This document shows, piece by piece, positions 26,870 to 39,700 of a DNA stretch of 64,000 nucleotides. The notes below the pieces were generated by a model. The model searched no databases and was not told the DNA's origin. It saw nothing but the letters and a program-made list of their open reading frames with translations. The translations under genes and the position numbers were made by a program. Location of the stretch: assembly GCA_900318175.1 (NCBI GenBank), contig ONJQ01000010.1, forward strand, positions 32,769 to 96,768. Direction: 5' to 3'. Origin of the DNA: an uncultured Bacteroidales bacterium (GTDB taxonomy: Bacteria > Bacteroidota > Bacteroidia > Bacteroidales > P3). The number at the start of each line of letters is the position of its first letter. Positions within the stretch are counted from its first letter, which is position 1.

Positions 26870-26900
26870 TTTGCAATGTCAGATTTTTTGTGTATTTTTG
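26870..26900 (+). promoter_or_regulatory. Promoter for the 27.0-kb lipoprotein gene
   Basis: TTTG at 26870-26873 and TATTTTTG at 26893-26900 are separated by 19 bp, a textbook Bacteroidota -33/-7 pair. Transcription should begin near 26907, giving a leader of about 115 bases. A second TATTTTTG just before the gene (about 26998-27005) may be an alternative. Confidence 0.75.
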
Positions 26901-27023
26901 CAGTCTCTTGCAAGGTATGGCGGGGAGCTGGCGTTTGTGTTAGTAGGTTGATTGACACAAAGCTTGGACCTAAAGCCGTGCGAGATGCGAATGCGAGTAT
27001 TTTTGAAAAAAATAATATTTGTT

Positions 27024-27599
27024 ATGACAAAACATTTATCAGTCCTATGCATTGCCGCCGCGTTGCTCCTTAGCACCGTGGTATCCAGTTGCACCACCCA
27101 GCGCCAAGTCGTGTCGCTGAACGGCTACGAACGCACCGTGGCGCTCATGGCTCAGCAGATGGCCGCCGAAGGCTACATGCAGACCGGCGCCGAGTCCACA
27201 TCCACCAACCAAATCAGCGTTGACAAGACAGTGACCTACTTCAACCGCTATGGCCGTGAGACAGGCTATTCGCAGAAGATGAAAAACAACCTCTACTACC
27301 ACAATGTCTACACCTTTGCCGACAGCCTTGGCAACCAGGCCACCGTGACCACCCTCTACAAGCCCGAGACCATTGGCAACACCGTCTGCCTCGAAGAGTA
27401 CGCTTTGGAAGGCTGCAAGACCTCCCTTCCGCAGGACTATGCACGCATCTGTTCCGGCGGCGGCCCCGTCTCCCGCAACCTCTCCCAGCTCTATACCGAC
27501 ACCACCGTCGAGGATTTGGACTACCTCAAATCTTCCTTAATTCTTGCGGGCGGCGCAGCCGTGCTGGGAGTGCTCCTCTTGGTCTTGTTGGGCGAGTAA
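27024..27599 (+). CDS. Small lipoprotein of unknown function
   Basis: A 191-residue lipoprotein starting MTKHLSVLCIAAALLLSTVVSSC with lipobox VSSC. Upstream in-frame starts exist (a TTG at 26952 and ATGs near 26987), but the ATG at 27024 places the signal peptide correctly. The middle part is polar with conserved-looking aromatic segments (TVTYFNRYGRETGYSQKMKNN), and the last 20 residues are a hydrophobic glycine/leucine stretch (SLILAGGAAVLGVLLLVLLG) that would form a C-terminal membrane helix, unusual for a lipoprotein. It is flanked by its own promoter and the hemerythrin gene. Function unknown. Confidence 0.7.
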   Translation: MTKHLSVLCIAAALLLSTVVSSCTTQRQVVSLNGYERTVALMAQQMAAEGYMQTGAESTSTNQISVDKTVTYFNRYGRETGYSQKMKNNLYYHNVYTFADSLGNQATVTTLYKPETIGNTVCLEEYALEGCKTSLPQDYARICSGGGPVSRNLSQLYTDTTVEDLDYLKSSLILAGGAAVLGVLLLVLLGE

Positions 27600-27720: not shown

Positions 27721-28422
27721 ATGAAACACAAGTATTTTGTCGGACGGATGAAGATGGCGGACGTAGTGGCCGCAAACCACACCCTCATACTGGCTATGCC
27801 GCGCTTCGGCATCGCTTTGGGATTCGGCGAACGCAGCGTGCAGGAAATCTGTGCGCAATACTCCCTGCCCGTAGACTTTGTGCTGATGGTCTTCAACGTC
27901 TACACCTTTGACGATTACCTGCCCGACGAGGAAGAGCTAAAGCGGACCGACTTCAGCCCGCTGGTGCCTTACCTCGAAGCCAGCCACCGCTACTACCTCA
28001 ACGAGCGGCTTCCCCACATCCAGCGGCACCTGATGCATGTGGCCGGGAGTGCCGGCGAACGTTACGGCTCCATATTGAAAAGCTTCTTTGAAGACTACCG
28101 CAAAGAGGTGGTGGAGCATTTCGAGAGTGAGGAGTGCGACGTCTTCCCCTACCTGCAAGGGCTTTTGAACGGCTGTGCGGCGGCAAAACCCGTGTCCGAC
28201 CATTTTGCCGACAACCACACCGATTTGGTCGACAAACTCAGCGACCTGACACAGATACTCTACAAGTATATCCCCTGCGAGGGCTTTGCCGAGGAGCTCA
28301 ACGAACTCGTTTTCTCCATCCTGCAGCTCAGTGCCGACTTGGAGAAGCACGCCGTCATCGAAGAGAAAATCCTGCTGCCCTACATCTACCAGCTGGAAAG
28401 GAGGCGAGCCGATGAAACCTAA
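27721..28422 (+). CDS. Hemerythrin-like domain protein (ScdA/YtfE-like)
   Basis: A 233-residue cytoplasmic protein. The N-terminal about 65 residues resemble the helical ScdA/YtfE N-domain (FGERSVQEICAQYSLPVDFVL) but lack its cysteine pair. The rest is a four-helix hemerythrin-like domain with likely di-iron ligands H89, H133 and E137 (HFESEECDVFP), H161 or H166, H210 and E214 (HAVIEEKILLP). Relatives (RIC proteins) sense or relieve nitric oxide, oxygen or peroxide damage to iron centres. The ATG at 27721 is chosen over an upstream TTG. The next gene, a LuxR-type regulator, overlaps its end by 11 bp, so the pair likely acts as a sensor-regulator unit. Confidence 0.88.
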   Translation: MKHKYFVGRMKMADVVAANHTLILAMPRFGIALGFGERSVQEICAQYSLPVDFVLMVFNVYTFDDYLPDEEELKRTDFSPLVPYLEASHRYYLNERLPHIQRHLMHVAGSAGERYGSILKSFFEDYRKEVVEHFESEECDVFPYLQGLLNGCAAAKPVSDHFADNHTDLVDKLSDLTQILYKYIPCEGFAEELNELVFSILQLSADLEKHAVIEEKILLPYIYQLERRRADET

Positions 28423-28990
28423 GCTCCAAGTGCTCGTGGCCGAGCCCAGCGACATCATACGCGAAGGGCTGCGCGTTCTGCTTGACGACGATGAGTTCGT
28501 CCTTCAGGCTCCGTTGCGCGAACTGCCTATGGATTTTGCCCAGAGGATAGCCCGCTCCCAGCCTGACATCCTCATATTGAATCCCACCCTGCTGAACACC
28601 CCGCCACGGATGCAGCTCGTCTCCATACAACAGGCGCGCACAAGCATGGCCGTGGTGGCATTGGTCTACCAATACGTCGACCCGTCTCTCCTGTCCCAGT
28701 TCAAGACAGTCTTGGACATACGGGAACGGGGCAGCCGCGTGGCCCAGTTGCTGCGCCAATGCTGCGCCCCCGAGGCCGAGGATGAAGAGGGGTACGAACT
28801 CAGCGAGCGGGAGACCGAGGTGCTCGTGCTCCTGGCCCGGGGGTGCAGCAGCAAAGAGATTGCCGACAAACTGAACATCAGCGTCCACACCGTGAACACC
28901 CACCGTAAAAACATCACCCGCAAGACGGGCATCAAGAGCGTGGCCGGCCTCGCGGTGTACGCCCTGCTCCACAACCTGGTGGCGGGATAA
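28412..28990 (+). CDS. LuxR-type regulator with degenerate receiver domain
   Basis: A 192-residue transcription regulator. Residues 5-115 have the fold pattern of a response-regulator receiver, but the phosphorylated Asp is replaced by N57 (PDILILNP), and the acidic pair at the end of strand 1 is Glu-Pro (LVAEPSD). It therefore probably cannot be phosphorylated. Residues 129-190 are a canonical LuxR/GerE helix-turn-helix (LSERETEVLVLLARGCSSKEIADKLNISVHTVNTHRKN in part). The start has a good Shine-Dalgarno (GGAGG) inside the preceding gene, and the two overlap by 11 bp. An input from the hemerythrin-like partner rather than a kinase is likely; this is inference. Confidence 0.9.
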   Translation: MKPKLQVLVAEPSDIIREGLRVLLDDDEFVLQAPLRELPMDFAQRIARSQPDILILNPTLLNTPPRMQLVSIQQARTSMAVVALVYQYVDPSLLSQFKTVLDIRERGSRVAQLLRQCCAPEAEDEEGYELSERETEVLVLLARGCSSKEIADKLNISVHTVNTHRKNITRKTGIKSVAGLAVYALLHNLVAG

Positions 28991-29011
28991 GCCAATTGAA
29001 AAATAAATAGA

Positions 29012-30214
29012 TTGAATAACAACACAGTGAACGGGCAGCACACAGAACGGCTATGGAATGCCAACTACACCAAGGTGTGGGTGGCAAACTTCATGATATT
29101 CTTTTCATTCATGCTGCTGACCCCCCTGCTGCCTATCTACCTCAGCGAACAATTCGGTGCCGACAAGGACACCATCGGTCTGGTCCTGTTCGGCTACGCC
29201 GTCATGGCGCTCGTTGCAAGGCTCTTTTCGGGCTACGTGGTGGACAGTTTCCCCCGCAAGATGGTGCTCCTCATCAGCTTTACCGTCTTCACGCTCTTCT
29301 TTGTCGGCTACGTGGCTGCGGGCACGCTGATGCTCTTTGCCGCCGTGCGGACGGTCCACGGCATGCCCTTCGGCTTCACCACCGTGGCCAACAGCACCGT
29401 GGCTATCGACGTGTTGCCCTCCTCACGCCGCACGGAGGGCATAGGCCTCTATGGGTTGAGCAACAATCTGGCCTCCGCCATATCGCCCACCGTCGCCATC
29501 TGGATCTACACCACCACACACAATTTTGACATCATTTTCTGGCTGGCCATGGGCGTGGCTGCCGTGGGGCTGCTCATTGACGCCACCGTGACCACCCGTC
29601 CCCGCGCCGCGGTGAAAGGGAAGCAGCCCGTCTCCCTCGACCGTTTCTTCCTGATGAAGGGGTTGGGCGAAGCCCTGACCATGGTCTGCTTCGCCTTCAG
29701 CTACGGCGTTATGAGCACATACGTGGCTATCTACGGCAAGGAGCGGTTGGGCATTGAGGGCGGCTCCGGCACCTTCTTCCTGCTGCTCTCCCTCGGCCTT
29801 ATCCTGTCGCGGCTGCAGGGCAACAAAGCCCTGCGGCAGGGCCGCATCACCCATAACGCCTCCTTGGGCGTGTGCGTTTCGCTGGTGGGCTACCTGCTGT
29901 TTGCAGCCCTGCCCAACGCCTTCGGCTACTATGCCGCCGCACTCGTCATCGGCCTCGGCAACGGCCACATGTATCCCGCCTACCAGAACATGTTTGTCGA
30001 CCTTGCGCCCCACACGCAGCGCGGCACGGCCAACAGCTCCATTCTCGTGGCCTGGGACGTGGGCGTGGGCCTCGGCATCGTGGCCGGAGGAGTGCTGAGC
30101 CAGCATTGGGGCTACGGAGCCGCCTTCTGGACCGCATGGGTGGTCAACGCTGTGGGCTTTGCCGGCTACTGGCTCTATGTGAAAAGCCACTTCACCCGTC
30201 AGCGATTGAGATAG
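29012..30214 (+). CDS. MFS transporter
   Basis: A 400-residue inner membrane protein with about 12 hydrophobic segments, of the major facilitator superfamily. Helix 1 is VWVANFMIFFSFMLLTPLLPIYL, and the MFS loop 2-3 signature appears as GYAVMALVARLFSGYVVDSFPRKMVLL in part. It looks like a drug or metabolite efflux type (the 'MFS_1' pattern), with a large cytoplasmic loop near residues 185-205. The start is a TTG at 29012; the next in-frame ATG lies inside helix 1. It is 21 bp after the LuxR-type gene, so it is likely in the same transcript. Substrate unknown. Confidence 0.88.
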   Translation: MNNNTVNGQHTERLWNANYTKVWVANFMIFFSFMLLTPLLPIYLSEQFGADKDTIGLVLFGYAVMALVARLFSGYVVDSFPRKMVLLISFTVFTLFFVGYVAAGTLMLFAAVRTVHGMPFGFTTVANSTVAIDVLPSSRRTEGIGLYGLSNNLASAISPTVAIWIYTTTHNFDIIFWLAMGVAAVGLLIDATVTTRPRAAVKGKQPVSLDRFFLMKGLGEALTMVCFAFSYGVMSTYVAIYGKERLGIEGGSGTFFLLLSLGLILSRLQGNKALRQGRITHNASLGVCVSLVGYLLFAALPNAFGYYAAALVIGLGNGHMYPAYQNMFVDLAPHTQRGTANSSILVAWDVGVGLGIVAGGVLSQHWGYGAAFWTAWVVNAVGFAGYWLYVKSHFTRQRLR

Positions 30215-30541
30215 AAAAAACAAAAACGGAACAACATTTTGCAACCATGAGAACAGAAAACGGTAGTGTCAACGTCGTGGGCAGTCGCCCCCCGCAACAA
30301 TCCAGCCTTGCGGCGGGGTGTGGACATCAAGCCCGTGCACCCCATCTGTGGCTGTTGTCTGCACGTTTTGTTGGGGTCGGCAAAAAGTTGCCCTCCCCAG
30401 GTTCAAGACACACGGCAGCCCCGGCAAGTGGGGACACCCTCTGCGGGGCAAGCACCCCCAGACCGTTATGGGGCGTTTTGACCCTGAAGAAACACAGCAA
30501 ATAGAACGTTATTTTTAAACCATTAAAACAATAAAACGGAA
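30215..30541. other. 327-bp gap without a supported gene
   Basis: Between the MFS and polyferredoxin genes I find no convincing ORF, RNA or promoter. A GC-rich inverted repeat (CCCCGCA ... TGCGGCGGGG around 30290-30318) is present. An 85-codon open frame from 30247 lacks any protein-like features and is not called. Confidence 0.4.
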
Positions 30542-31999
30542 ATGTTACGCAGAATAAGAATCGGCTTGGCCATTGTGTTTTTTGTGGCCGTCACGCTGCT
30601 TTTTCTTGATTTTACAGGAGTGATGCATCTGTATCTCGGCTGGCTGGCCAAGGTGCAGTTGTTGCCCGCAGTGCTGTCGCTGAATGTGGCGGTGGTGCTG
30701 TTCTTTGTTGTGGTGACACTGTTAGTGGGCAGAACCTACTGCTCTGTAGTGTGCCCCTTTGGAGTGATGCAGGATGTCTTCATTTGGTTGGGAGGACGAT
30801 GGAAAAAGAATCGTTTCCACTTCACAAAGGGCTGGCCCTGGCTGCGAGTGGCCATGCTGGCGGTGTTTGTGCTGCTGATGGCGCTTGGACTGAACGGGAT
30901 TACCATCCTGATAGCTCCCTACAGTGCCTATGGTCGTATAGCAACCAACCTATTCCAACCTGTTTATATGTGGATTAACAACCTCTTTGCCTATTTTGCT
31001 GAGCGAGCAGACAGCTATGCTTTCTACAGCGTGGATGTGTGGGTGAAAAGTGGAGTCACGTTGGCAGTGGCCGCTGTTACGTTTGTGCTGGTGGGATTTG
31101 TTTCTTTCCGTTGGGGAAGAGTGTGGTGCAACACGGTATGTCCCGTAGGAACGGTGCTGGGATTCCTGTCCCGCTTTGCCCTGCTTAAACCGCGTATTGA
31201 CACCGGCAAGTGCAACGGTTGCGGCAAGTGTGCCCGCAACTGTAAGGCTCAGTGCATCAATCCTGTTGACCATACCATTGACGGGTCTCGCTGTGTAGCC
31301 TGTATGGATTGCATAGAGAATTGCCACCAAAAGGCCATCGAGTTCCGCAGAGGGAAAGCCACGGTGAAGGATGAGACCGTTGACCCCTCGCGCCGCAAGT
31401 TTGTGGCCACCACGGCAGCTGTGGGTGCCGCTATGGCTCTACAAGCCCAAGAGAAGAAAGTGGACGGAGGTCTTGCCGCCCTCATTGATAAGAAACTGCC
31501 CGAGAGAGCTGTCCCGCTGAAGCCTTTCGGGGCAAAGAGCTTGAAGAACTTTTCGAGCCGTTGCACGGGATGCCAGCTGTGCGTGAGCGAATGTCCTCAG
31601 CATGTTTTGCGTCCCTCGCAGAAGTTTACCACCCTGTTGCAGCCTGAGATGGCTTTTGACAAAGGCTATTGTCCTCCAGATTGCACCCGCTGCAGCGAGG
31701 TTTGCCCCACAGGTGCCATACAGAAAATTGACACCGTCACAAAGAGTGCCATCAGTATTGGTCACGCTGTCACAGTTCCGGAGAACTGCTTGCAGGCTCA
31801 GGGTGTGGAGTGCAACGCATGTTCGCGCCATTGCCCAGCAGCAGCCATCAGCATTGTGAGCGATGCTTCGACAGGTCACAGCCGAGTGGCCGTAAACGAG
31901 TCGCGTTGTTTAGGCTGCGGTGCATGTGAGTATTATTGCCCTGTACGCCCGTTCAGCGCCATCTATGTGGAAGGCCGCGAGGTACACACTGATATCTAA
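30542..31999 (+). CDS. NapH/NapG-like membrane polyferredoxin with internal twin-arginine motif
   Basis: A 485-residue FeS protein with two parts. The N-terminal part (1-270) is NapH-like: four or more membrane helices, two CxxxCP motifs (C67/C71 and C196/C200) and two ferredoxin clusters (C224-C234, C251-C261). Then DPSRRKFVATTAAVGAAMAL (281-300) looks like an internal Tat signal with R284-R285. The C-terminal part (305-485) is NapG-like, with four more cysteine groups (starting C341, C377, C416, C456). It would pass electrons from the quinone pool or cytoplasm to a periplasmic acceptor. There is no nitrate reductase nearby; the likely partner is the Tat-exported aldo/keto reductase at 34.4 kb. 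Confidence 0.88.
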   Translation: MLRRIRIGLAIVFFVAVTLLFLDFTGVMHLYLGWLAKVQLLPAVLSLNVAVVLFFVVVTLLVGRTYCSVVCPFGVMQDVFIWLGGRWKKNRFHFTKGWPWLRVAMLAVFVLLMALGLNGITILIAPYSAYGRIATNLFQPVYMWINNLFAYFAERADSYAFYSVDVWVKSGVTLAVAAVTFVLVGFVSFRWGRVWCNTVCPVGTVLGFLSRFALLKPRIDTGKCNGCGKCARNCKAQCINPVDHTIDGSRCVACMDCIENCHQKAIEFRRGKATVKDETVDPSRRKFVATTAAVGAAMALQAQEKKVDGGLAALIDKKLPERAVPLKPFGAKSLKNFSSRCTGCQLCVSECPQHVLRPSQKFTTLLQPEMAFDKGYCPPDCTRCSEVCPTGAIQKIDTVTKSAISIGHAVTVPENCLQAQGVECNACSRHCPAAAISIVSDASTGHSRVAVNESRCLGCGACEYYCPVRPFSAIYVEGREVHTDI

Positions 32000-32048
32000 G
32001 AAATTAACAACAGTAATAATCTAATCAATATCAACATCAAACAAAACT

Positions 32049-33011
32049 ATGAGTAAGATTCTTGATACGCTTAGCGTAGTGAAAACGTACAAGTTCTGGA
32101 AAGAGCTTGTCATCATGACTCTCGGCATGTTTGTAACCGCTGCCGCTGTATACTATTTCTTGGTGCCGAGCAAACTGATTATCGGTACCATCTCAGGCCT
32201 TTCGATTGTGCTGGATAACATCTTCCAGGCTGCTGGCATCAACATCGGCCTGTCGGTCATCATTATGGCCATCAACGCTATTCTGCTGATTCTGGCATGG
32301 GTGCTGATTGGACATGAGTTTGGTGCCAAGACCGTCTACACAGCCATGATCCTTGGCCCGCTGACGGACGTGTGGGATGCCATCCTGCCGTGGCAGAAGA
32401 TTGCCAATGAGAACTTGGTGACGGGTACCCCCTCGGTGATGGGCGACCCTTGGCTTGATCTTTGCTGCTTTGTCCTGCTGCTGAGTGCCTCGCAAGCCCT
32501 GATGTTCAGCATCAACGCTTCTACCGGCGGACTGGACATTCTGGCCAAGATTGTGAACAAGTATCTCCACTTCGACATCGGTACCTCGGTCAGCATCGCC
32601 GGTGCCGTAATCTGCTGCACAGCTTTCTTCATCAATCCGTTCCGTATGGTTGTCATCGGTCTTATCGGCACTTGGATCAACGGTCTTGTGGTCGACTATT
32701 TCACAGCTTCGCTCAATAACCGCAAACGTGTCTGCATTGTGTCGAAGGACTACGACCGTATCCGCCGTTACATCATCGACGACCTTCATCGTGGTTGCAC
32801 ACTCTATGAGGTGATTGGTGGCTACTCCAACGAGCGGAGCATTGAGCTGGAGGTGCTGCTGACCAAGGATGAGTTCAGCAACCTGATGGCTTTCTTGCGC
32901 GACAACGAAATCAACGCGTTCACCACCGCCGGCAACGTGAGCGAGGTGTATGGTCTCTGGACCAAGCACAGCAAGAAGAAACAGATTAAAGAACACGCAG
33001 ACAATAGATAA
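32049..33011 (+). CDS. YitT family membrane protein
   Basis: A 320-residue inner membrane protein of the YitT (DUF161) family. It has about five or six hydrophobic segments; typical stretches are VTAAAVYYFLVPSKLIIGTISGLSIVL near the N-terminus and INASTGGLDILAKIVNKYLHFDIGTSV. The soluble C-terminal DUF2179 domain (residues about 225-290; NRKRVCIVSKDYDRIRRYIIDDLHRGCTLYEV in part, ending TAGNVSEVYGLW) binds a small ligand in structural relatives. Biological role unknown. It sits 49 bp after the polyferredoxin gene and 32 bp before a CPBP protease gene. Confidence 0.92.
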   Translation: MSKILDTLSVVKTYKFWKELVIMTLGMFVTAAAVYYFLVPSKLIIGTISGLSIVLDNIFQAAGINIGLSVIIMAINAILLILAWVLIGHEFGAKTVYTAMILGPLTDVWDAILPWQKIANENLVTGTPSVMGDPWLDLCCFVLLLSASQALMFSINASTGGLDILAKIVNKYLHFDIGTSVSIAGAVICCTAFFINPFRMVVIGLIGTWINGLVVDYFTASLNNRKRVCIVSKDYDRIRRYIIDDLHRGCTLYEVIGGYSNERSIELEVLLTKDEFSNLMAFLRDNEINAFTTAGNVSEVYGLWTKHSKKKQIKEHADNR

Positions 33012-33043
33012 TATCTTATCACCCATTAATTATTTTTGCCACT

Positions 33044-34351
33044 ATGAAAACCCCCAAACGCTACGACAAGAGATTCCTTCCCATGCTGTGGATAGGATTG
33101 ATTCTTTGGATTGGTTCTATGGCCGTGATGTATTTTCTTGAGTCGACCGGCAAGTCACCCTCGGGACAGGAAAATCTCATGCAGATGTCCAAAGGGATGT
33201 TTCATACCATTCCAGTATTCACATTGCTGCTGCTCTGTTTCTTCCAACCTATATTGGAAGAGCTGAGTTTCCGCCTGTGGGGCGTTGGCAAGAAGTGGAG
33301 CACCATTGTGTGCCTTGTGCTGATGTCCGTCTTCGTAATGAGTGAACTGAAGCTCTTTGGGCTCATCTTCATAGTGGCATTCATCCTTGTATGGGTGTTT
33401 GTCCGAAACCGTGTGGCACAGGTCTGGATCAATACCATTATCACCTCTTTGGCCTTCTCGCTGAGCCACATCTCCGGTTTTGGCGACTTCTCGTTGGGAA
33501 TGGTCTTGGGCTTGGTCGATATTTTTGGTATGGCATTGGTGCTTTGCTGGCTCACTATCAATATCAATTTCTGGTTGGCTCCCTTGTTGCACGTGCTCAA
33601 CAATAGTGTGAGCATACTGGTGCCCATGTTGTTTGTCTCCGATCCTATCACCTCATCCCATTCCATAACGATTGGTCCTCAAGAAGTCTGCAGCTATCAA
33701 ACCACAGTCGAACCCTTCCGCTATTTCGCCGATAATAAGGAGCTGATGTCTCAAGATGGGCCATGTGGTCTTTTCCCGCCCGATACCACTGGCTTCGTCC
33801 TTGTGGGCGAACCCGCGCAAATAGCTTGCAGGCTTGCCGCCAGGGCCGACAGCACTATGCTAAACAACGTCGAATGGAAATACAACTACGATTGGCAGTC
33901 CAAGAATGCAGGTCTGGAAGAGCGTGTTGTCTTCCGTGTAAGCGACTATTCTAATCCCGACGGCAATTACGATTTCAACAATTTATTCTACAACGGGTTG
34001 CTCGACGACTATATCCGCGATGTGTCCCGCCTCATTGGAGACACCATCGTGGCCGATACCACCGAAATCATGATCCAAGAGGTTTGGGTGGTATACGACG
34101 ACGGGCGAGAGGAACTATTCACTTCCGATAGTCCTTCCAGTTTATGGTCCGAGGTGATGGAGGGTAAAGTGTTGTTCAGCAAACCTGTCGAAGAGAACGA
34201 TTCCACAGTCACTATCCACTACTACGCTTACGATGACATCCACTCCTCACCGCTGCTCGATATGCGTTCCACTCTCCTCAATATGTCATCCCACGACTAC
34301 CGTATTGAATACCGCGATTCGCACAAGGAAACATTTATCATTTTCAAGTAA
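33044..34351 (+). CDS. CPBP-family intramembrane metalloprotease with extra C-terminal domain
   Basis: A 435-residue protein. The first about 190 residues form a CPBP (CAAX protease and bacteriocin-processing) membrane domain with the motifs EELSFR (about 72-77), FSLSHISGFGD and LLHVLNNSV, giving the glutamates, arginine and histidines of the active site. The remaining about 240 residues are soluble, polar and acidic, unlike most CPBP proteins (usually 200-300 residues total); this part is probably periplasmic and I do not recognise it. The gene is between yitT and the Tat-lipoprotein oxidoreductase, likely in one transcript. Substrate unknown. Confidence 0.82.
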   Translation: MKTPKRYDKRFLPMLWIGLILWIGSMAVMYFLESTGKSPSGQENLMQMSKGMFHTIPVFTLLLLCFFQPILEELSFRLWGVGKKWSTIVCLVLMSVFVMSELKLFGLIFIVAFILVWVFVRNRVAQVWINTIITSLAFSLSHISGFGDFSLGMVLGLVDIFGMALVLCWLTININFWLAPLLHVLNNSVSILVPMLFVSDPITSSHSITIGPQEVCSYQTTVEPFRYFADNKELMSQDGPCGLFPPDTTGFVLVGEPAQIACRLAARADSTMLNNVEWKYNYDWQSKNAGLEERVVFRVSDYSNPDGNYDFNNLFYNGLLDDYIRDVSRLIGDTIVADTTEIMIQEVWVVYDDGREELFTSDSPSSLWSEVMEGKVLFSKPVEENDSTVTIHYYAYDDIHSSPLLDMRSTLLNMSSHDYRIEYRDSHKETFIIFK

Positions 34352-34395
34352 CACAATGAAACAAGCGGCTTAACGCCCTCAAATAATTTAGTAAT

Positions 34396-35823
34396 ATGGA
34401 TCGTAGAGATTTTCTTAAAAGCATGGGAGCCGGGGCATTGGTCACGGCAGCAATGGCTGCGGGTTGCGACTCGCCTAACAAAACCAAAGCCGAAGGGTTT
34501 GCTTCGGGCGAGGTGCCAACCGACAAGATGACCTACCGCACGGGTACCCATGGCGAGAAGGTGTCGCTGTTAGGCTATGGTTGTATGCGCCTGCCTTCGA
34601 CAGAGGACGGTAAAGACGGCAACCAAACTGAAGGCGATCTGGATCAAGACCGAATCAACGAGCTTACCGACTATGCCATAGCTCACGGACTGAACCTGTT
34701 CGACACCGCCCCCCGCTATTGCAAAGCCAGGTCCGAGATTGCTATGGGCAAAGCGTTGAGCCGCCACCGCCGCGAAGAATATCTCGTCAGCACCAAGCTC
34801 TCCAATCAGAACCCCGACCTTTGGAACCGCCAAGGGAGTATAGAGATGTTCGAGCAGTCCTTGGAACGTCTGCAGGTGGACTACCTCGATTTCTACATGC
34901 TCCATTGTGTGGGACTCCCGGGGCGTGACCTCGACGGTAATGCCGTCTCGCCTCACGAGGCCTTCATGCGCCGTTTTATCGACAACGGGATGCTCGACTG
35001 GCTTATTGAGCAAAGGACCAAGGGCCGCATTCGCAACCTCGGGTTCTCCTACCACGGCGATGTGAAGGTCTTTGACGAGGCTTTGGCCATGCACGACAAA
35101 GTGCACTGGGACCACGTCCTGATCCAGCACAACTACATCAACTGGCAGCATGCCGCTTCGCTGGCTCCCGACGGGGAGGGCGACGCCAATTCCGAATACC
35201 TCTACGGCCAGTTGGCGGAACGTGACATACCTGTGTTTGTGATGGAGCCCCTGCTGGGTGGCCAGTTGGCCAATCTGCCCCAGTTCGCCGTCGAGGAGCT
35301 GAAGAGCCGCGCTCCGGAAAAGAGCCTCGCCTCGTGGGCTTTCCGCTTTGCAGGCACTCTGCCCCGCATCCTCACAGTGCTCAGCGGCATGACCTACATG
35401 GAGCACCTGCAGGACAACATCCGCACAATGGCACCCCTTCAGCCCCTTAGCGACGAGGAGCAAGGGCTGCTGCACTCCATCGCCGACCGCTACGTCGAGT
35501 TTCCCTTGGTGCCCTGCACGGGCTGCCAGTACTGCATGCCGTGCCCCTACGGCATCGACATCCCCGGCAACTTTGCCCACTACAACAAGATGGTCAACGA
35601 GGGCAACCTGCTGGACCGCCCTGACGACGATGCCACCACCGACCAGCGTCGCGCCTACCGCAAGGCCCGTCGCGCCTACCTGGTCAGCTACAGCCGCGCG
35701 GTGGAACAGTTCCGTCAGGCCGACCACTGCATTGGCTGCGGACGCTGTCTGCATGAGTGCCCGCAAAGCATCAACATCCCCGAGAAACTCGCCGCCATTG
35801 AGCATGTGCTCCGTGAGGGCTGA
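34396..35823 (+). CDS. Tat-exported lipoprotein aldo/keto reductase with ferredoxin domain
   Basis: A 475-residue oxidoreductase. The N-terminus MDRRDFLKSMGAGALVTAAM followed by AAGC is both a twin-arginine signal (RRDFLK) and a lipobox (C24), so the folded protein is exported by Tat and lipid-anchored. Residues about 45-350 are an aldo/keto reductase barrel with likely catalytic residues in NLFDTAPRYCKARSEIAMGKAL (in part; Asp, Tyr), VSTKLSNQ (Lys) and LDFYMLHCVG (His). The C-terminal part holds two FeS motifs, CTGCQYCMPCPYGIDIP and CIGCGRCLHECPQSINIP. tatA follows 91 bp downstream, strengthening the Tat reading. Substrate unknown; the polyferredoxin upstream may supply electrons. Confidence 0.92.
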   Translation: MDRRDFLKSMGAGALVTAAMAAGCDSPNKTKAEGFASGEVPTDKMTYRTGTHGEKVSLLGYGCMRLPSTEDGKDGNQTEGDLDQDRINELTDYAIAHGLNLFDTAPRYCKARSEIAMGKALSRHRREEYLVSTKLSNQNPDLWNRQGSIEMFEQSLERLQVDYLDFYMLHCVGLPGRDLDGNAVSPHEAFMRRFIDNGMLDWLIEQRTKGRIRNLGFSYHGDVKVFDEALAMHDKVHWDHVLIQHNYINWQHAASLAPDGEGDANSEYLYGQLAERDIPVFVMEPLLGGQLANLPQFAVEELKSRAPEKSLASWAFRFAGTLPRILTVLSGMTYMEHLQDNIRTMAPLQPLSDEEQGLLHSIADRYVEFPLVPCTGCQYCMPCPYGIDIPGNFAHYNKMVNEGNLLDRPDDDATTDQRRAYRKARRAYLVSYSRAVEQFRQADHCIGCGRCLHECPQSINIPEKLAAIEHVLREG

Positions 35824-35914
35824 TGCCCCCGCGGGGGGAGTCTTGGAATCCCGTATTGAAACAAACACCGTCCGGCACAGCGCCGCACAATAACTTAATA
35901 TAGATACAAACAGT

Positions 35915-36109
35915 ATGAGCATTCTATTTATCGGAACAACGGAGATTATTGTTATCGTTCTTGTCGTCCTGCTGCTTTTCGGCGGCAAGAAAATCCCCGA
36001 ACTTATGCACGGCTTGGGCAAGGGGGTGAAGAGCTTCAAAGAGGGCATGAATGGCAGCGAGGAGCCCCGCCAACAGCAGGAGGACAAAGGGGCTGAGTCT
36101 GGGAAGTGA
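35915..36109 (+). CDS. tatA: Twin-arginine translocase subunit TatA
   Basis: A 64-residue Tat pore-forming subunit: one N-terminal membrane helix ([16 protein letters not shown]), the conserved hinge GGKKIPEL, and an amphipathic helix ([14 protein letters not shown]) followed by a short charged tail. Length and pattern are typical of TatA/TatE. tatC follows after 62 bp, and the Tat-signal oxidoreductase gene precedes it, so the locus groups translocase and substrate. No separate tatB is visible, so TatA probably serves both roles. Confidence 0.94.
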
Positions 36110-36171
36110 GCGTCTCACCACGCCACCATACCGTGGATTGTTGACCCCTGACCTCAAAAACCGCATTGTAT

Positions 36172-36939
36172 ATGGACTTTTGGGACCATATGGAGGCCTT
36201 GCGCAGTTGTCTGCTCAAGGCCGTGGTGGCCGCCGCGGTGGCCGCTGTGGCTGCTTTCTGCTTCAAGGGGCCGCTTTTTGCCGTGGTGCTGGCTCCCAGC
36301 ACGGACGCTTTTGTCACTTACAGGCTCTTGGCAAGGGTGACGGGCTTCAAAACGGAGTTCCACGTGGCGCTGTTCAACCCTGAGCTGGCTCAGCAGTTTG
36401 TCGTCCATATGCGCGTGGCCCTATGGGCGGGGGTGCTTGCGGTTTCGCCTTACGTGGTCTACCTCCTGTTCCGTTTCGTCTCGCCGGGGCTGTACCGCCA
36501 TGAGCGGCGGAGCGCCGTGAGGGCCGTGACGGGCGGCAGCGTGATGTTCCTGGCCGGGGTGGCGCTGAACTATTTTCTGATTTTCCCGCTCGCGTTCCGT
36601 TTTCTGGGCACCTACCAGGTGGACCCCAGTGTGAAGAACCAAATCTCGCTCACGTCGTATGTCGACATGCTGCTGCTGCTGTGTTTGCTGATGGGGGTGG
36701 TGTTTGAACTGCCGGTTGTGGCGTGGCTGTTGGCACGGGTGGGGCTGCTGCGGTCGCAGCCGATGCGGAGCCGTAGGCGGCAGGCCGTGGTGGCGGTGCT
36801 GGTTGCCGCCGCGGTGATCACGCCCACGGGCGACGCAATGACTCTTGCGCTGGTGGCGCTGCCGGTCTATGCGTTGTATGAGGCGAGCATTGGCGTGGTC
36901 CGCCGCGAGGAGCGGCGGCAGCAGCGCGGTGCGGCATGA
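36172..36939 (+). CDS. tatC: Twin-arginine translocase subunit TatC
   Basis: A 255-residue, six-helix membrane protein that recognises twin-arginine signals. The N-terminal cytoplasmic stretch MDFWDHMEALRSCLLKA matches the signal-binding FxxHLxELR motif, and family features continue with FRFVSPGLYRHERR, GVALNYFLIFPLAFRFL and the C-terminal VAAAVITPTGDAMTLALVALPVYALYE (in part). A TTG two codons upstream (36166) is possible, but the ATG at 36172 gives the usual N-terminus. It is translated after tatA from what is probably the same mRNA. Confidence 0.95.
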   Translation: MDFWDHMEALRSCLLKAVVAAAVAAVAAFCFKGPLFAVVLAPSTDAFVTYRLLARVTGFKTEFHVALFNPELAQQFVVHMRVALWAGVLAVSPYVVYLLFRFVSPGLYRHERRSAVRAVTGGSVMFLAGVALNYFLIFPLAFRFLGTYQVDPSVKNQISLTSYVDMLLLLCLLMGVVFELPVVAWLLARVGLLRSQPMRSRRRQAVVAVLVAAAVITPTGDAMTLALVALPVYALYEASIGVVRREERRQQRGAA

Positions 36940-36979: not shown

Positions 36980-39700
36980 ATGAAGCGTTTCACTTTTTTA
37001 CTGTTGGTCTCGCTGCTTGGCTGCACGACGCTGCAGGGGCAGCGGGCGGCGGCAAGGCTGGCCCAACGGGTGCTGGGCAGCGGGGCCGAAAAATTCGAGT
37101 TCAGGCACCAGCCCGGCACGACGGACTTTTTCACCCTCAGAACGGTCGGCCAAAGGGTCTACATTGCGGGCAATAATGACAATTCGATGGCCGTGGGGCT
37201 GAACTATTACCTGAAGGAGTATCTGAACGTGCATGTGTCGTGGTACCGGTTGGAGCCTGTGCGTCTGCCCAAGAGGCTTGCGCCGGTGGCGCAGCCGGTG
37301 ACGCGGTTCTGCCAGGTGCCGCTGCGTTTCTTCCTCAACTACTGCACCTATGGCTATACAATGGCGTGGTGGCAGTGGGAGCAGTGGGAGCACTTCATTG
37401 ACTGGATGGCCTTGAACGGCATCAATATGCCCCTTGCCCTTACGGGGCAGGAGGCAGTGTGGCAGCAGGTGTGGCGCGAGATGGGAATGACCGACGATGA
37501 GATACGCGCCTATTTCAGCTCGCCAGCCCATCTGCCGTGGCACCGCATGGCCAACCTCGACGGTTTCGGCGGCCCGTTGCCGCAGGGGTGGATTGACGGG
37601 CAGCGGGCCCTGCAGCGCAAAATCGTGGCCCGCGAACGGGAACTGGACATGACGCCGGTGCTCCCGGCTTTTGCGGGCCACGTGCCGCGGCAGATCGCGG
37701 AGTGGAACGCGGTGGCCGACATCAGGCGGCTGAACGGATGGTGCGGTTTCGAGCCCACCTATTTCCTCAGCCCCACCGACAGCCTTTTTGCCGTCATCCA
37801 GAAGTCCTATCTCTCCAAGCAGACCAAGCTTTACGGCTCGAACCACGTCTATGCCATAGACCCCTTCAACGAGATGGACCCGCCATCGTGGGATACGGAC
37901 TACCTGGCCTCCGTTGCGAAGGGAATCTTCAACTCCCTGCTCCAAACCGACCCCGATGCGTGGTGGCTCCAGATGTCGTGGGTTTTCTACTACAAGCGGA
38001 ACCAGTGGACCCCTGAGCGGCTGAAGGCCTACCTCACCGCTGTGCCGCAGGGACGGATGGTGCTGTTGGACTATTTCTGTGAGAAGACCGAGGTGTGGCG
38101 ACAGACCGACGCTTTCTACGGTCAACCCTTCATCTGGTGCTATTTGGGCAACTTTGGGGGGAACACAATGCTGGTGGGCGACTTGAAGGGGCTCCACGCC
38201 CGTCTCGACAGCCTGAGACTTGCCCACAAGCCCAACCTCCTGGGCATAGGCTCGACGCTCGAAGGTTTCGACCCTTCGCCTCAGACTTTTGAGTTCCTTT
38301 TCGAGCACCCCTGGCATTTGACCCGTTCTGAAAATACCGTGGCGGAATTCACCCGCCGGTGGTCTTGCCTCCGCCAGGGCGAGCCCTCCACAAGCGCGCA
38401 CGACGCCTGGCGTTTGCTGATTGATTCCGTCTACCGCGACTGGTCCTACTACGGCATGGGTACGCAGATGGTTGCGCGCCCCTCACTGTCCGGCCACGGC
38501 ACCTACTACACCAAGCCCTATTACTCCTACGACAACTCCACGCTGCTCCGTGCCGTTCGCCTACTGATGGAGGCTCCCTCGAAAAGTCCGTCTTACCGCT
38601 ACGATGTGGCCAACTTTTTGAGCCAATGGTTAGGCAACCACTTTATGGAGGTGCGTGACGCCTACACCGACGCCTACCGTCAGGGCGACACCGCCCTCAT
38701 GCACCGCTATGCAAGCGTGGCCCTCGGCATGATGGACGATGCCGACGAGCTTCTCTCTACCATAGAGCCTTTTGATTATTATCATTGGGTGGAGCAGGCG
38801 CGCAGCTGGGGCAATAGCCCGAGCGAGAAGGACTATTACGAGACCTCGGCCCGCACGCTGCTCACCGTTTGGGGAGGCCCCGTGCTGAACGACTATGCCA
38901 ACCGTATGTGGGGAGGCCTGTTGCGCGACTATTACCGTGCGCGGTGGAGCCGCTTTTTCCGCGCTGTCGACTCTTCTTTCACTGCCCGTGTGCCGTTTGA
39001 TCAGCATAGGTTTGACAGCACCCTCTCGCACTTTGAGCAGCAGTGGGCCCGCACCGGCACTCCCGCCACTCAGCGGCAGCGGCAGGGTGTCACCCTCGAA
39101 GTGGCAGGGCGCATTCTGGACCGCGAGGCTTCGGGCTATTACGCCGTCCCCAATCGCGCAAGGCAGGTGTTGTCGGACTATCTGCGCCGATTCCCCGAGG
39201 CGCAACTGCAGGATGTCTACAAACTCTGTTTTCAGGACATCTACGGCCCCGGCCACATCATCAAGGACTCTGCCTCGTGTGTCCAATACATCATCCGCGA
39301 GATGGAGCAGGTCGACACCGCCGACACTCGCTATCCGGACTACGAATATGCCGGAGTAGAAGGCAACTATGTGCGAGTCAACATCAAGGTGTTGAAGCAG
39401 GGGAGGTTCGATTTGGGCCGCTTTGTCCAGCTCCTCATGCTCAGTGCCCGTCAGGAAAAGCCCATGCCCATTTATGATTGGCGTGGGCAGTGGCAGCGGT
39501 TGCAGACCATGCTTGGCACCTTGCAGCCACGTCCGCACAATTTTGAGGCCGACGCCTCCCTGCTGCAGCAGATGTTCGACCGCGGTGAGTATGTGTTCCA
39601 TCATAGCACACGGTTCAACCAAGCCTACGGGCCGCACTATCGCCTCATTCGCCGCGACCTTTTCGAGCAAGAATTGCTCCCTGTCCTCCAAATGAGGTAG
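36980..39700 (+). CDS. GH89 alpha-N-acetylglucosaminidase
   Basis: A 906-residue exported glycosidase of family GH89 (relative of human NAGLU) that removes terminal alpha-linked N-acetylglucosamine, for example from mucin glycans or heparan-type chains. Signal peptide KRFTFLLLVSLLGCTTLQGQ contains a lipobox-like LLGC. Family motifs: YGYTMAWWQWEQWEHFIDWM, ALNGINMPLALTGQEAVWQ, GFGGPLPQGWIDGQ, and the catalytic carboxylates E298 in DPFNEMDPPSW and E428 in STLEGFDPSPQTFEFLFEHP. A further open frame upstream overlaps tatC and is rejected; the ATG at 36980 follows a purine-rich spacer. It suggests a host-glycan diet. It is a stand-alone gene. Confidence 0.94.
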   Translation: MKRFTFLLLVSLLGCTTLQGQRAAARLAQRVLGSGAEKFEFRHQPGTTDFFTLRTVGQRVYIAGNNDNSMAVGLNYYLKEYLNVHVSWYRLEPVRLPKRLAPVAQPVTRFCQVPLRFFLNYCTYGYTMAWWQWEQWEHFIDWMALNGINMPLALTGQEAVWQQVWREMGMTDDEIRAYFSSPAHLPWHRMANLDGFGGPLPQGWIDGQRALQRKIVARERELDMTPVLPAFAGHVPRQIAEWNAVADIRRLNGWCGFEPTYFLSPTDSLFAVIQKSYLSKQTKLYGSNHVYAIDPFNEMDPPSWDTDYLASVAKGIFNSLLQTDPDAWWLQMSWVFYYKRNQWTPERLKAYLTAVPQGRMVLLDYFCEKTEVWRQTDAFYGQPFIWCYLGNFGGNTMLVGDLKGLHARLDSLRLAHKPNLLGIGSTLEGFDPSPQTFEFLFEHPWHLTRSENTVAEFTRRWSCLRQGEPSTSAHDAWRLLIDSVYRDWSYYGMGTQMVARPSLSGHGTYYTKPYYSYDNSTLLRAVRLLMEAPSKSPSYRYDVANFLSQWLGNHFMEVRDAYTDAYRQGDTALMHRYASVALGMMDDADELLSTIEPFDYYHWVEQARSWGNSPSEKDYYETSARTLLTVWGGPVLNDYANRMWGGLLRDYYRARWSRFFRAVDSSFTARVPFDQHRFDSTLSHFEQQWARTGTPATQRQRQGVTLEVAGRILDREASGYYAVPNRARQVLSDYLRRFPEAQLQDVYKLCFQDIYGPGHIIKDSASCVQYIIREMEQVDTADTRYPDYEYAGVEGNYVRVNIKVLKQGRFDLGRFVQLLMLSARQEKPMPIYDWRGQWQRLQTMLGTLQPRPHNFEADASLLQQMFDRGEYVFHHSTRFNQAYGPHYRLIRRDLFEQELLPVLQMR

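Follow-up and report, generated by a model that had tools for sequence, protein, structure and literature searches.

Do nine neighbouring genes on one strand of a Bacteroidales genome form a single Tat-dependent redox system, and which of them belong together? The genes lie in the window, the 64,000-nucleotide stretch of DNA that was analysed here, and an earlier note on this DNA had suggested that all nine could make up a self-contained periplasmic electron-transfer system. Our analysis of this gut-type Bacteroidales genome points to a smaller core: two exported iron-sulfur proteins that are conserved as a pair and encoded next to the Tat machinery. The pair probably mediates electron exchange of the membrane with an extracytoplasmic compound.

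Gene content and neighbourhood of the locus

The nine genes were all found on the + strand at 27721..36939, and each of the proposed assignments is backed by a Pfam match. They encode a hemerythrin (HHE) protein that partners a LuxR-type regulator (27721..28422; PF01814, 36.7 bits, cut-off 25.3), the LuxR-type DNA-binding regulator itself (28412..28990; PF00196, 63.3 bits), an MFS transporter with an uncertain TTG start (29012..30214; PF07690, MFS_1), a NapH-NapG fusion polyferredoxin (PFD; 30542..31999; Fer4-type matches), a YitT-family membrane protein (32049..33011; PF02588 and PF10035, YitT and DUF2179), a CPBP (Rce1-like) membrane protein (33044..34351; PF02517, 26.5 bits, cut-off 22.4), an aldo/keto reductase with a Tat lipoprotein signal and a ferredoxin domain (AKR; 34396..35823; PF00248, Aldo_ket_red, and Fer4_9), TatA (35915..36109; PF02416, TatA_B_E) and TatC (36166..36939, start probably the ATG at 36172; PF00902, 200 bits). 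The TatA and TatC domains score above curated cut-offs in both Pfam and NCBIfam (TIGR01411 and TIGR00945).

In order to see which neighbours are conserved, we counted genes around PFD in 58 loci with full flanks. YitT is near PFD in 35 of these, MFS in 9 and CPBP in 7, while tatC is absent from the neighbourhood in 20. The hemerythrin/LuxR regulator, YitT and tatA-tatC recur in part of Bacteroidales, where the order regulator-PFD-YitT-AKR-tatA-tatC is kept. The MFS and CPBP genes lie outside the conserved core and are local to near relatives of the window; thus, the nine genes cannot be regarded as one functional unit, and the unit idea survives for the core, where PFD and AKR are linked and the order is partly kept. 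A gene-neighbourhood search had been set beforehand as a check, and it found PFD and AKR linked across Bacteroidales and a few other phyla.

The gap at 30215-30541 had been named as the place where a transcript break would be decisive. We dropped it as such because its length varies in relatives, from about 15 to 737 bp between MFS and PFD across 16 related loci. A sequence scan of the gap found no + strand terminator-like site, and its sequence matched only itself when the window and related loci were compared. One motif that fits the Bacteroides-type promoter consensus is present at 26870 and is uninformative. The NAGLU gene that follows tatC was considered as a conserved partner and ruled out: of the 48 loci with a match, 35 matched only its C-terminal domain, with tblastn spans limited to about residues 726-951 of the gene product. 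This domain of ~180 residues (39152..39694, + strand, as delimited by tblastn spans in relatives) is encoded apart from NAGLU in relatives, in most cases downstream of tatC, and no Pfam family beyond NAGLU scored above cut-off in the window protein or in the proteins of three relatives.

Linkage and distribution of PFD and AKR

Judged by gene linkage and co-occurrence, the conserved core of the locus is the PFD-AKR pair. A survey of 198 genomes of the order showed PFD in all 35 that carry this AKR. Of the 40 AKR copies, 37 have a same-strand PFD no more than 5 kb away, and 34 of these are separated from it by 23-118 bp. Within the window's genus (59 genomes), 53 genomes have both genes, 4 have neither and 2 are discordant, namely G021, whose AKR is close to the start of a contig, and G034, a genome that is 68% complete. 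Twelve of the 57 AKR copies in the genus are not near a PFD, some being contig-end or fragment cases, and PFD and AKR are apart in one clade of the genus. Related genomes and loci enter all of these counts, which are therefore not made up of independent samples. AKR was found at E 1e-50 in one of 296 genomes of the phylum, the window's own, as against PFD-like proteins in 28 (the window's counted), and PFD is thus wider in distribution than the pair.

The gene order is PFD-AKR in Bacteroidota, Acidobacteriota and locus L093, and AKR-PFD in loci L064, L121 and L128 and in the Kiritimatiellae/Verrucomicrobia loci. The PFD and AKR trees concur in placing Holophagales beside Dysgonomonas/Massilibacteroides. 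In addition, DUF1893 forms part of the AKR chain in L076 and L108 and of the PFD chain in L126, and in L102 it is encoded on its own behind AKR. The paralogues in genomes G379, G447 and G448 each retain their own partner. It could be argued that redox genes and tatAC merely stay together by inheritance and do no joint work, which would suit the split pair in one genus clade and the distance of tatC in 20/58 loci. However, the two genes are linked across phyla and in either order, DUF1893 is fused to one protein in some loci and to the other elsewhere, and paralogues keep to their own partners, all of which makes such coincidental synteny very improbable. The split pair and the distant tatC, together with the occurrence of PFD without AKR in 55/198 genomes, also weigh against a two-protein module.

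Sequence features of the polyferredoxin

The PFD chain combines a NapH-like stretch (residues 171-269; NapH/MauN, 69.6 of 213.05 bits) with a NapG-like stretch (residues 277-477; 73.2 of 269 bits), both below the NCBIfam cut-off, and the motifs of both parts are conserved in alignments. Two CX3C pairs and six cysteine quartets are present in every row aligned there (101 rows in all). Four hydrophobic segments, seen as hydropathy peaks before residue 283, precede the twin arginine, and the segment right after it is weakly hydrophobic, its highest 19-residue mean being 0.7 vs. 2.29-2.89 in the other four.

The internal motif itself, SRRKF (residues 283-287; 31388..31402, + strand), is present as the earlier note had reported. 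The pattern RRx[FLIMVY] occupies this site in 90 of the 101 rows, the window's among them; the other 11 show KR, RQ or other variants, or in one case a truncated row. RQ stands in place of RR in, for example, the cultured Dysgonomonas hofstadii DSM 104969 (locus L071). The rows of the PFD and AKR alignments include near-duplicates, and from its recurrence in them the internal RR is judged to be more than chance.

Sequence features of the aldo/keto reductase

The AKR opens with RRDFLK (core RRDF at 34402..34413, + strand), and its lipobox MAAGC ends in C24, the cysteine predicted to be lipid-anchored (34465..34467, + strand). It thus has the N-terminal RRxFLK, hydrophobic stretch and lipobox of a Tat substrate, in agreement with the motifs first pointed out for it, while TIGR01409 matches it at an E-value of only 9. 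RRx[FLIM] occurs within the first 40 residues in 85 of 87 AKR sequences from the loci, a recurrence that we likewise judge to be more than chance, and the lipobox cysteine is C in 80 of 83 aligned rows. In the Kiritimatiellae/Verrucomicrobia AKRs the RR is kept, but the residues that follow do not form a hydrophobic stretch (best 15-residue mean -0.46 to 0.57, vs. 1.16-1.85 in four other AKRs). Given these and the 11/101 PFD rows that lack the RR pattern, Tat export is not certain everywhere.

The barrel matches PF00248 with 102.9 bits. D103, Y108, K134 and H170, which we take to be the Asp-Tyr-Lys-His tetrad of the aldo/keto reductase superfamily, are intact in 39/39 sequences. Near the C-terminus, cysteines 374, 377, 380, 383, 445, 448, 451 and 455 are conserved throughout the 84-85 rows with at most one exception each, and these eight are predicted to form two ferredoxin-type [4Fe-4S] sites. 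L-galactose dehydrogenases make up 5 of the top six PDB relatives in profile comparison; N341 does not vary, and the GM loop can be aligned to L-galactose dehydrogenase. M283-E284-P285 and H220 are invariant in 39 sequences, and E284 stands where the aligned L-galactose dehydrogenase carries Ser, a difference that may disturb nucleotide binding and that counts against the two-protein module. So does chemistry: the classical AKR reaction is a hydride transfer while Fe-S clusters transfer single electrons, and no flavin domain is found among the Pfam matches of PFD or AKR to bridge this mismatch.

Tat translocase and its putative clients

The tatC of the window is the only TatC match in its genome, and TatC is present in 295 of 296 sampled genomes of the phylum. 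To our knowledge, little is known about Tat exports in this phylum. In the window's genome, the top two matches of the Pfam TAT_signal model are PFD (E 6.4e-4, at the internal motif) and AKR (E 0.0105, under the Pfam cut-off), and genus-wide 85 of 99 Tat-signal matches are PFD or AKR. The translocase stands beside its two best-scoring clients, which offers a concrete, testable physiological role for Tat in gut anaerobes. A DNA pattern for RRxFLK was also tried as a way of finding clients and rejected. Among its 11 matches in the genome, only that of AKR is an RR near a gene start; since the pattern admits Ser codons and the reversed control gave 19 matches, a match to it cannot by itself count as evidence.

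Exchange of AKR for DUF362 in sister loci

In 31 of the 32 examined loci that have PFD without AKR, a Tat-signal DUF362 gene lies directly upstream, and the exception is truncated by a contig end. On this gene context, the sister PFD clade swaps AKR for DUF362 as its partner. DUF362 is a domain of unknown function in Pfam, and we know of no established function for either DUF362 or DUF1893. The partner rule, by which AKR or DUF362 stands beside the same polyferredoxin type, would give DUF362 a functional context as an exported redox partner.

Literature searches yielded no description of the PFD-AKR pair, and none of DUF1893. DUF362 was looked for in one paper, PMC5449189, where 'aldo', 'DUF362' and 'operon' are absent from the main text. 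Within the scope of these searches, the view that no system of this composition is known holds for the pair; it does not hold for the PFD class (PMC5449189) or the hemerythrin/LuxR arrangement (CdhR, PMC10434189), which the available text of these two sources already describes. With somewhat less than even confidence, we propose that the locus represents an undescribed modular periplasmic system in which a dual Sec-Tat polyferredoxin takes AKR or DUF362 as interchangeable Tat-exported partners. AKR would then be the first member of its superfamily with a connection to the quinone pool, perhaps without a need for free NAD(P)H, and Tat in these bacteria would carry almost no cargo other than the pair.

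The hemerythrin/LuxR pair

The ATG of the regulator (28412) falls within the end of the hemerythrin gene. Each of the hemerythrin residues H89, H99, H133, E137, E138, H166, H210 and E214 is kept in 63 of 64 aligned sequences, and the protein's score against the RIC/YtfE model TIGR03652 (50.6 bits) is below the cut-off of 204.7. A helix-turn-helix motif shares an ORF with HHE in 29 of 63 locus ORFs, as confirmed by Pfam for L079. According to the available text of PMC10434189, HHE and LuxR pairs of the CdhR type (PG1236-37 and BT_0519-20) go up in P. gingivalis and B. thetaiotaomicron when iron is limiting, and a fused form exists in P. intermedia. By analogy, the suggested switching of the system by the iron-binding hemerythrin protein is plausible.

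Proposed mechanism and alternatives

Taken together, these features suggest that PFD and AKR form a two-protein periplasmic electron-transfer module built for the Tat route, a reading to which we assign a probability of about 0.6. The four helices of PFD would be inserted into the membrane by Sec, and its C-terminal four-cluster domain would be delivered outside by Tat via the internal RR. AKR would be exported by Tat prefolded, with its clusters in place and probably with a bound nicotinamide nucleotide. PFD would trade electrons with the quinone pool, as NapGH does, and electrons would pass between PFD and the two clusters of the AKR lipoprotein, whose barrel would oxidise or reduce a small molecule. 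In this arrangement, tatA-tatC would lie next to the genes of the two proteins that they mainly serve, and expression would probably be coupled to the iron or redox state through the hemerythrin/LuxR pair. If this holds, the coupling of an aldo/keto reductase to quinones would put a large enzyme superfamily to a new use.

As for direction, we find it slightly more probable that a sugar or alcohol is oxidised and menaquinone takes up the electrons than that a carbonyl is reduced; standard potentials favour the oxidation if menaquinone is the partner. Aldo/keto reductases are commonly reductases, and, in line with the reduction proposed in the earlier note, electrons could instead run from menaquinol through PFD to an AKR that reduces a reactive carbonyl, a quinone or another acceptor in a respiratory or detoxifying role. 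Since menaquinol is, by its potential, an unfavourable reductant for ordinary aldehydes or ketones, this scheme fits only unusually oxidising acceptors, and the predominance of L-galactose dehydrogenases among the structural relatives also speaks against it. We consider it rather unlikely, even with the resemblance of PFD to NapG/NapH, a quinol dehydrogenase complex (PMC5449189, available text), in its favour.

Less likely still is a repair or maturation system analogous to MsrPQ, in which AKR, or DUF362 in the sister loci, would mend or modify an envelope molecule or protein with electrons supplied via PFD and would have no role in growth on a substrate. The exchange of AKR and DUF362 as Tat partners and the DUF1893 fusions would be unusual for a simple catabolic enzyme, and the hemerythrin/LuxR pair of the same arrangement is up under iron limitation in the two species mentioned above. 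However, such a system has no known repair substrate, and neither DUF362 nor DUF1893 brings an established function to it.

Comparison with known systems

The window PFD shares with the dual Sec-Tat polyferredoxin of MLMS-1, in the available text of Tooke et al. (2017; PMC5449189), the fusion of NapH and NapG, an even number of helices (four, in the window by hydropathy) ahead of the internal RR, and a weakly hydrophobic segment after it that leads into a four-cluster domain. Within that family, the window PFD differs in that its subfamily goes with a Tat AKR. The NapG/NapH quinol dehydrogenase has the same make-up of domains and the same cluster motifs, whereas PFD is a single chain that falls short of the NapG, NapH and NapF NCBIfam cut-offs, and no NapA is found among the genes called in the window cluster.

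The hemerythrin/LuxR pair is likened to the CdhR type (PMC10434189, available text) by gene arrangement, an HHE gene followed by a LuxR-type gene, and the fused form occurs among relatives of the window too (L079); it differs in standing upstream of a PFD-AKR module. Compared with the nearest solved aldo/keto reductases (the 1ynp oxidoreductase and L-galactose dehydrogenases), AKR has the same barrel and catalytic tetrad, and adds the Tat lipoprotein signal, the C-terminal two-cluster ferredoxin domain and the invariant M283-E284-P285 and H220. Finally, Zymomonas GFOR has another fold than AKR and is not known to have an Fe-S domain or a quinone partner. It is a Tat-exported NADP-containing oxidoreductase (as cited in PMC7317946), and in this respect sets a precedent for the Tat export of a nucleotide-loaded oxidoreductase.

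Gene cluster and neighbourhood conservation

The nine + strand genes that the earlier note had placed at 27721-36939 are present as described, each assignment being supported by Pfam. The twin-arginine (RR) motifs were likewise confirmed, namely: RRDFLK plus a lipobox at the start of the lipoprotein aldo/keto reductase (AKR; 34396..35823, + strand), and SRRKF within the polyferredoxin (PFD; 30542..31999, + strand). An NCBIfam profile search finds NapG-like and NapH-like stretches in PFD, both under the NCBIfam cut-offs. Along the protein, four hydrophobic segments precede the RR motif, which is followed by a segment of weak hydrophobicity and then by a four-cluster domain. AKR has a C-terminal ferredoxin domain in which eight cysteines are conserved. 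The regulator gene starts within the hemerythrin gene. A protein encoded upstream of the latter (26952-27599) appears lipoprotein-like by eye and has no Pfam or NCBIfam match.

We compared neighbourhoods in two sets: 20 stretches from genomes of the genus, and 80 named loci, which are the best 80 of 91 matches to the PFD query. In 73 of the named loci, AKR is a same-strand neighbour of PFD at a distance of up to 7.5 kb; those without it are L059, L060, L067, L068, L083, L119 and L129, L083 and L129 being short. The 58 loci with full flanks contain AKR (53), a hemerythrin protein (40), tatA (38), tatC (38), YitT (35), MFS (9) and CPBP (7), and the locus counts are non-independent, with many close relatives, some in both sets, and all PFD-selected. 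L059 and L060, stretches without AKR, carry hemerythrin-LuxR genes downstream, not upstream, of PFD. In a Megasphaera record (L128, 9983-11482), PFD is split over two adjacent frames; its neighbours are AKR and a gene that encodes an iron-only hydrogenase domain.

Co-occurrence of PFD and AKR

An order-wide test that was not neighbourhood-selected covered 198 genomes (E 1e-60 for AKR, 1e-40 for PFD). AKR is found in 35 genomes and PFD in 90, and all 35 AKR genomes hold PFD (Fisher p 1.2e-14, relatedness ignored). Moreover, 37 of 40 AKR copies lie on the same strand within 5 kb of PFD, 34 of the 37 with a gap of 23-118 bp. At this threshold AKR is absent from the other 163 order genomes; in the phylum sample, at E 1e-50, it is absent from the 295 genomes other than the window's own.

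Among 59 genomes of the genus, 53 have both genes and 4 neither; G034, which is 68% complete, has PFD only, and G021, whose AKR is close to a contig start, has AKR only. PFD is near 45 of the 57 AKR copies in the genus; the remaining 12 include one clade in which the two genes are apart, plus contig-end and fragment cases. One TAA stop lies inside the AKR match in draft genomes G006:C7 and G037:C25. Ten further AKR stretches (L151-L160) were also compared: AKR is beside tatA-tatC, in a stretch without PFD, in L151, L154 and L160, and beside tatA in L159, while none of the other six (L152, L153, L155-L158) has a visible tat gene.

The PFD and AKR trees are alike in placing Acidobacteriota (Holophagales) beside Dysgonomonas/Massilibacteroides. 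This shared placement is compatible with joint transfer of both genes, and bin contamination might also produce it.

An alternative partner of PFD

PFDs without an adjoining AKR were collected as 32 order-level loci (12 + 20, for the most part the highest-scoring ones), representing 29 of the 55 genomes that have PFD and lack AKR, plus three AKR-holding ones (G379, G447, G448). In 31 of the 32, the same-strand gene directly upstream of PFD encodes an RR-signal protein, DUF362 or a close match; the remaining locus is cut off by a contig end at the start of PFD. The DUF362 assignment was made by Pfam on 4 proteins. The proteins of the initial twelve loci group into a single BLAST cluster, RR being present in 12/12, and the other 19, also with RR, were assigned by their 61-89% identity to that cluster. 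In a PFD tree (n=43: 31 with AKR, 12 with DUF362; quick search, SH-aLRT support only), one partner change suffices, at branch support 100. G379, G447 and G448 have both PFD kinds, each beside its own partner, and tblastn of the DUF362 proteins against the compared AKR-type loci and the window gave no match in those stretches.

Taken together, PFD and AKR are, as judged from these sequence comparisons, a conserved and putatively Tat-linked two-protein redox module, and the choice of partner follows a clear rule.

Tat signals and linked domains

In the window's genome (92% complete), PFD is the best match to the Pfam model TAT_signal (E 6.4e-4) and AKR the second (E 0.0105); apart from these two, just two frames, of 82 and 42 residues, match at E 10 (E 0.44 and 1.03). 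TIGR01409 also puts PFD at the top (E 0.0015), with a 54-residue frame next (E 0.33) and AKR in third place (E 9). The 59 genus genomes yield 99 TAT_signal matches at E 0.1, i.e. 41 PFD, 44 AKR and 14 others; of the eight among these 14 that were inspected, six are one Tat FMN reductase family and two look spurious. TAT_signal misses some PFDs and AKRs, and 7 of the 59 genomes are without any match; further Tat clients are thus possible. The FMN reductase family is NADPH-dependent (PF03358, by Pfam on L144; L143-L148 in G038, G022, G017, G021, G043 and G027, respectively), and may be a further Tat client and flavin carrier.

AKRs of Kiritimatiellae/Verrucomicrobia keep RR and have no hydrophobic stretch. 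The AKRs of L123, L125, L126, L127 and L130 have RR without a hydrophobic signal stretch; they may no longer be exported, or may leave by hitchhiking. The RR pattern is absent in 11 of 101 PFD rows: KR replaces it in five loci of the window's genus and L050, and RQ in cultured Dysgonomonas and Massilibacteroides, the rest being L094 (RR in another context), L123 (TRKGF) and L128 (truncated row).

According to Pfam, DUF1893 (TM1506; structure PDB 1vk9) has AKR as its fusion partner in L076 and L108, and PFD in L126; in L102 it is a separate gene behind AKR. C-terminal extensions resemble it by eye on AKR in L093 and on PFD in L127, L129 and L130. In the window and near relatives, a domain of ~180 residues is fused behind NAGLU (39152-39694); it is encoded without NAGLU in 35 other loci, mostly downstream of tatC (e.g. 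L079, 14945-15532), and no Pfam family scores over cut-off.

Possible reaction of AKR

The AKR tetrad is kept in 39/39 sequences, and a profile search gives the oxidoreductase 1ynp on top, followed by five L-galactose dehydrogenases. GFOR is reportedly a precedent for Tat export of a nucleotide-loaded oxidoreductase. The potential of menaquinone is ~-74 mV and that of aldehyde/alcohol ~-200 mV, with aldose/lactone lower; because of these potentials, oxidation by AKR with electrons passing to menaquinone is weakly favoured. Conversion between hydride and single electrons in AKR would require either a bound flavin or a barrel with a changed cofactor. E284 is invariant in AKR, Ser occupying this position in the aligned L-galactose dehydrogenase, with which a changed-cofactor barrel would be compatible.

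Comparison with known systems

The literature searched for an AKR-polyferredoxin system yielded no account of the PFD-AKR pairing; already known are the class of polyferredoxin to which PFD belongs and the way the regulator genes are arranged. The PFD layout is that of the dual Sec-Tat polyferredoxins, which passages of PMC5449189 describe as a NapH and NapG fusion, NapGH being termed a quinol dehydrogenase complex. For the regulator, sections of PMC10434189 report a hemerythrin gene with a LuxR-type gene after it in P. gingivalis (the arrangement called CdhR) and at BT_0519-520, both pairs being raised under iron limitation, and a fused form in P. intermedia. Among our loci, a LuxR-type motif is in the same ORF in 29 of 63 hemerythrin ORFs (Pfam-confirmed for L079). 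The window's pair has the same hemerythrin-to-LuxR-type order, and by this gene arrangement it is like CdhR.
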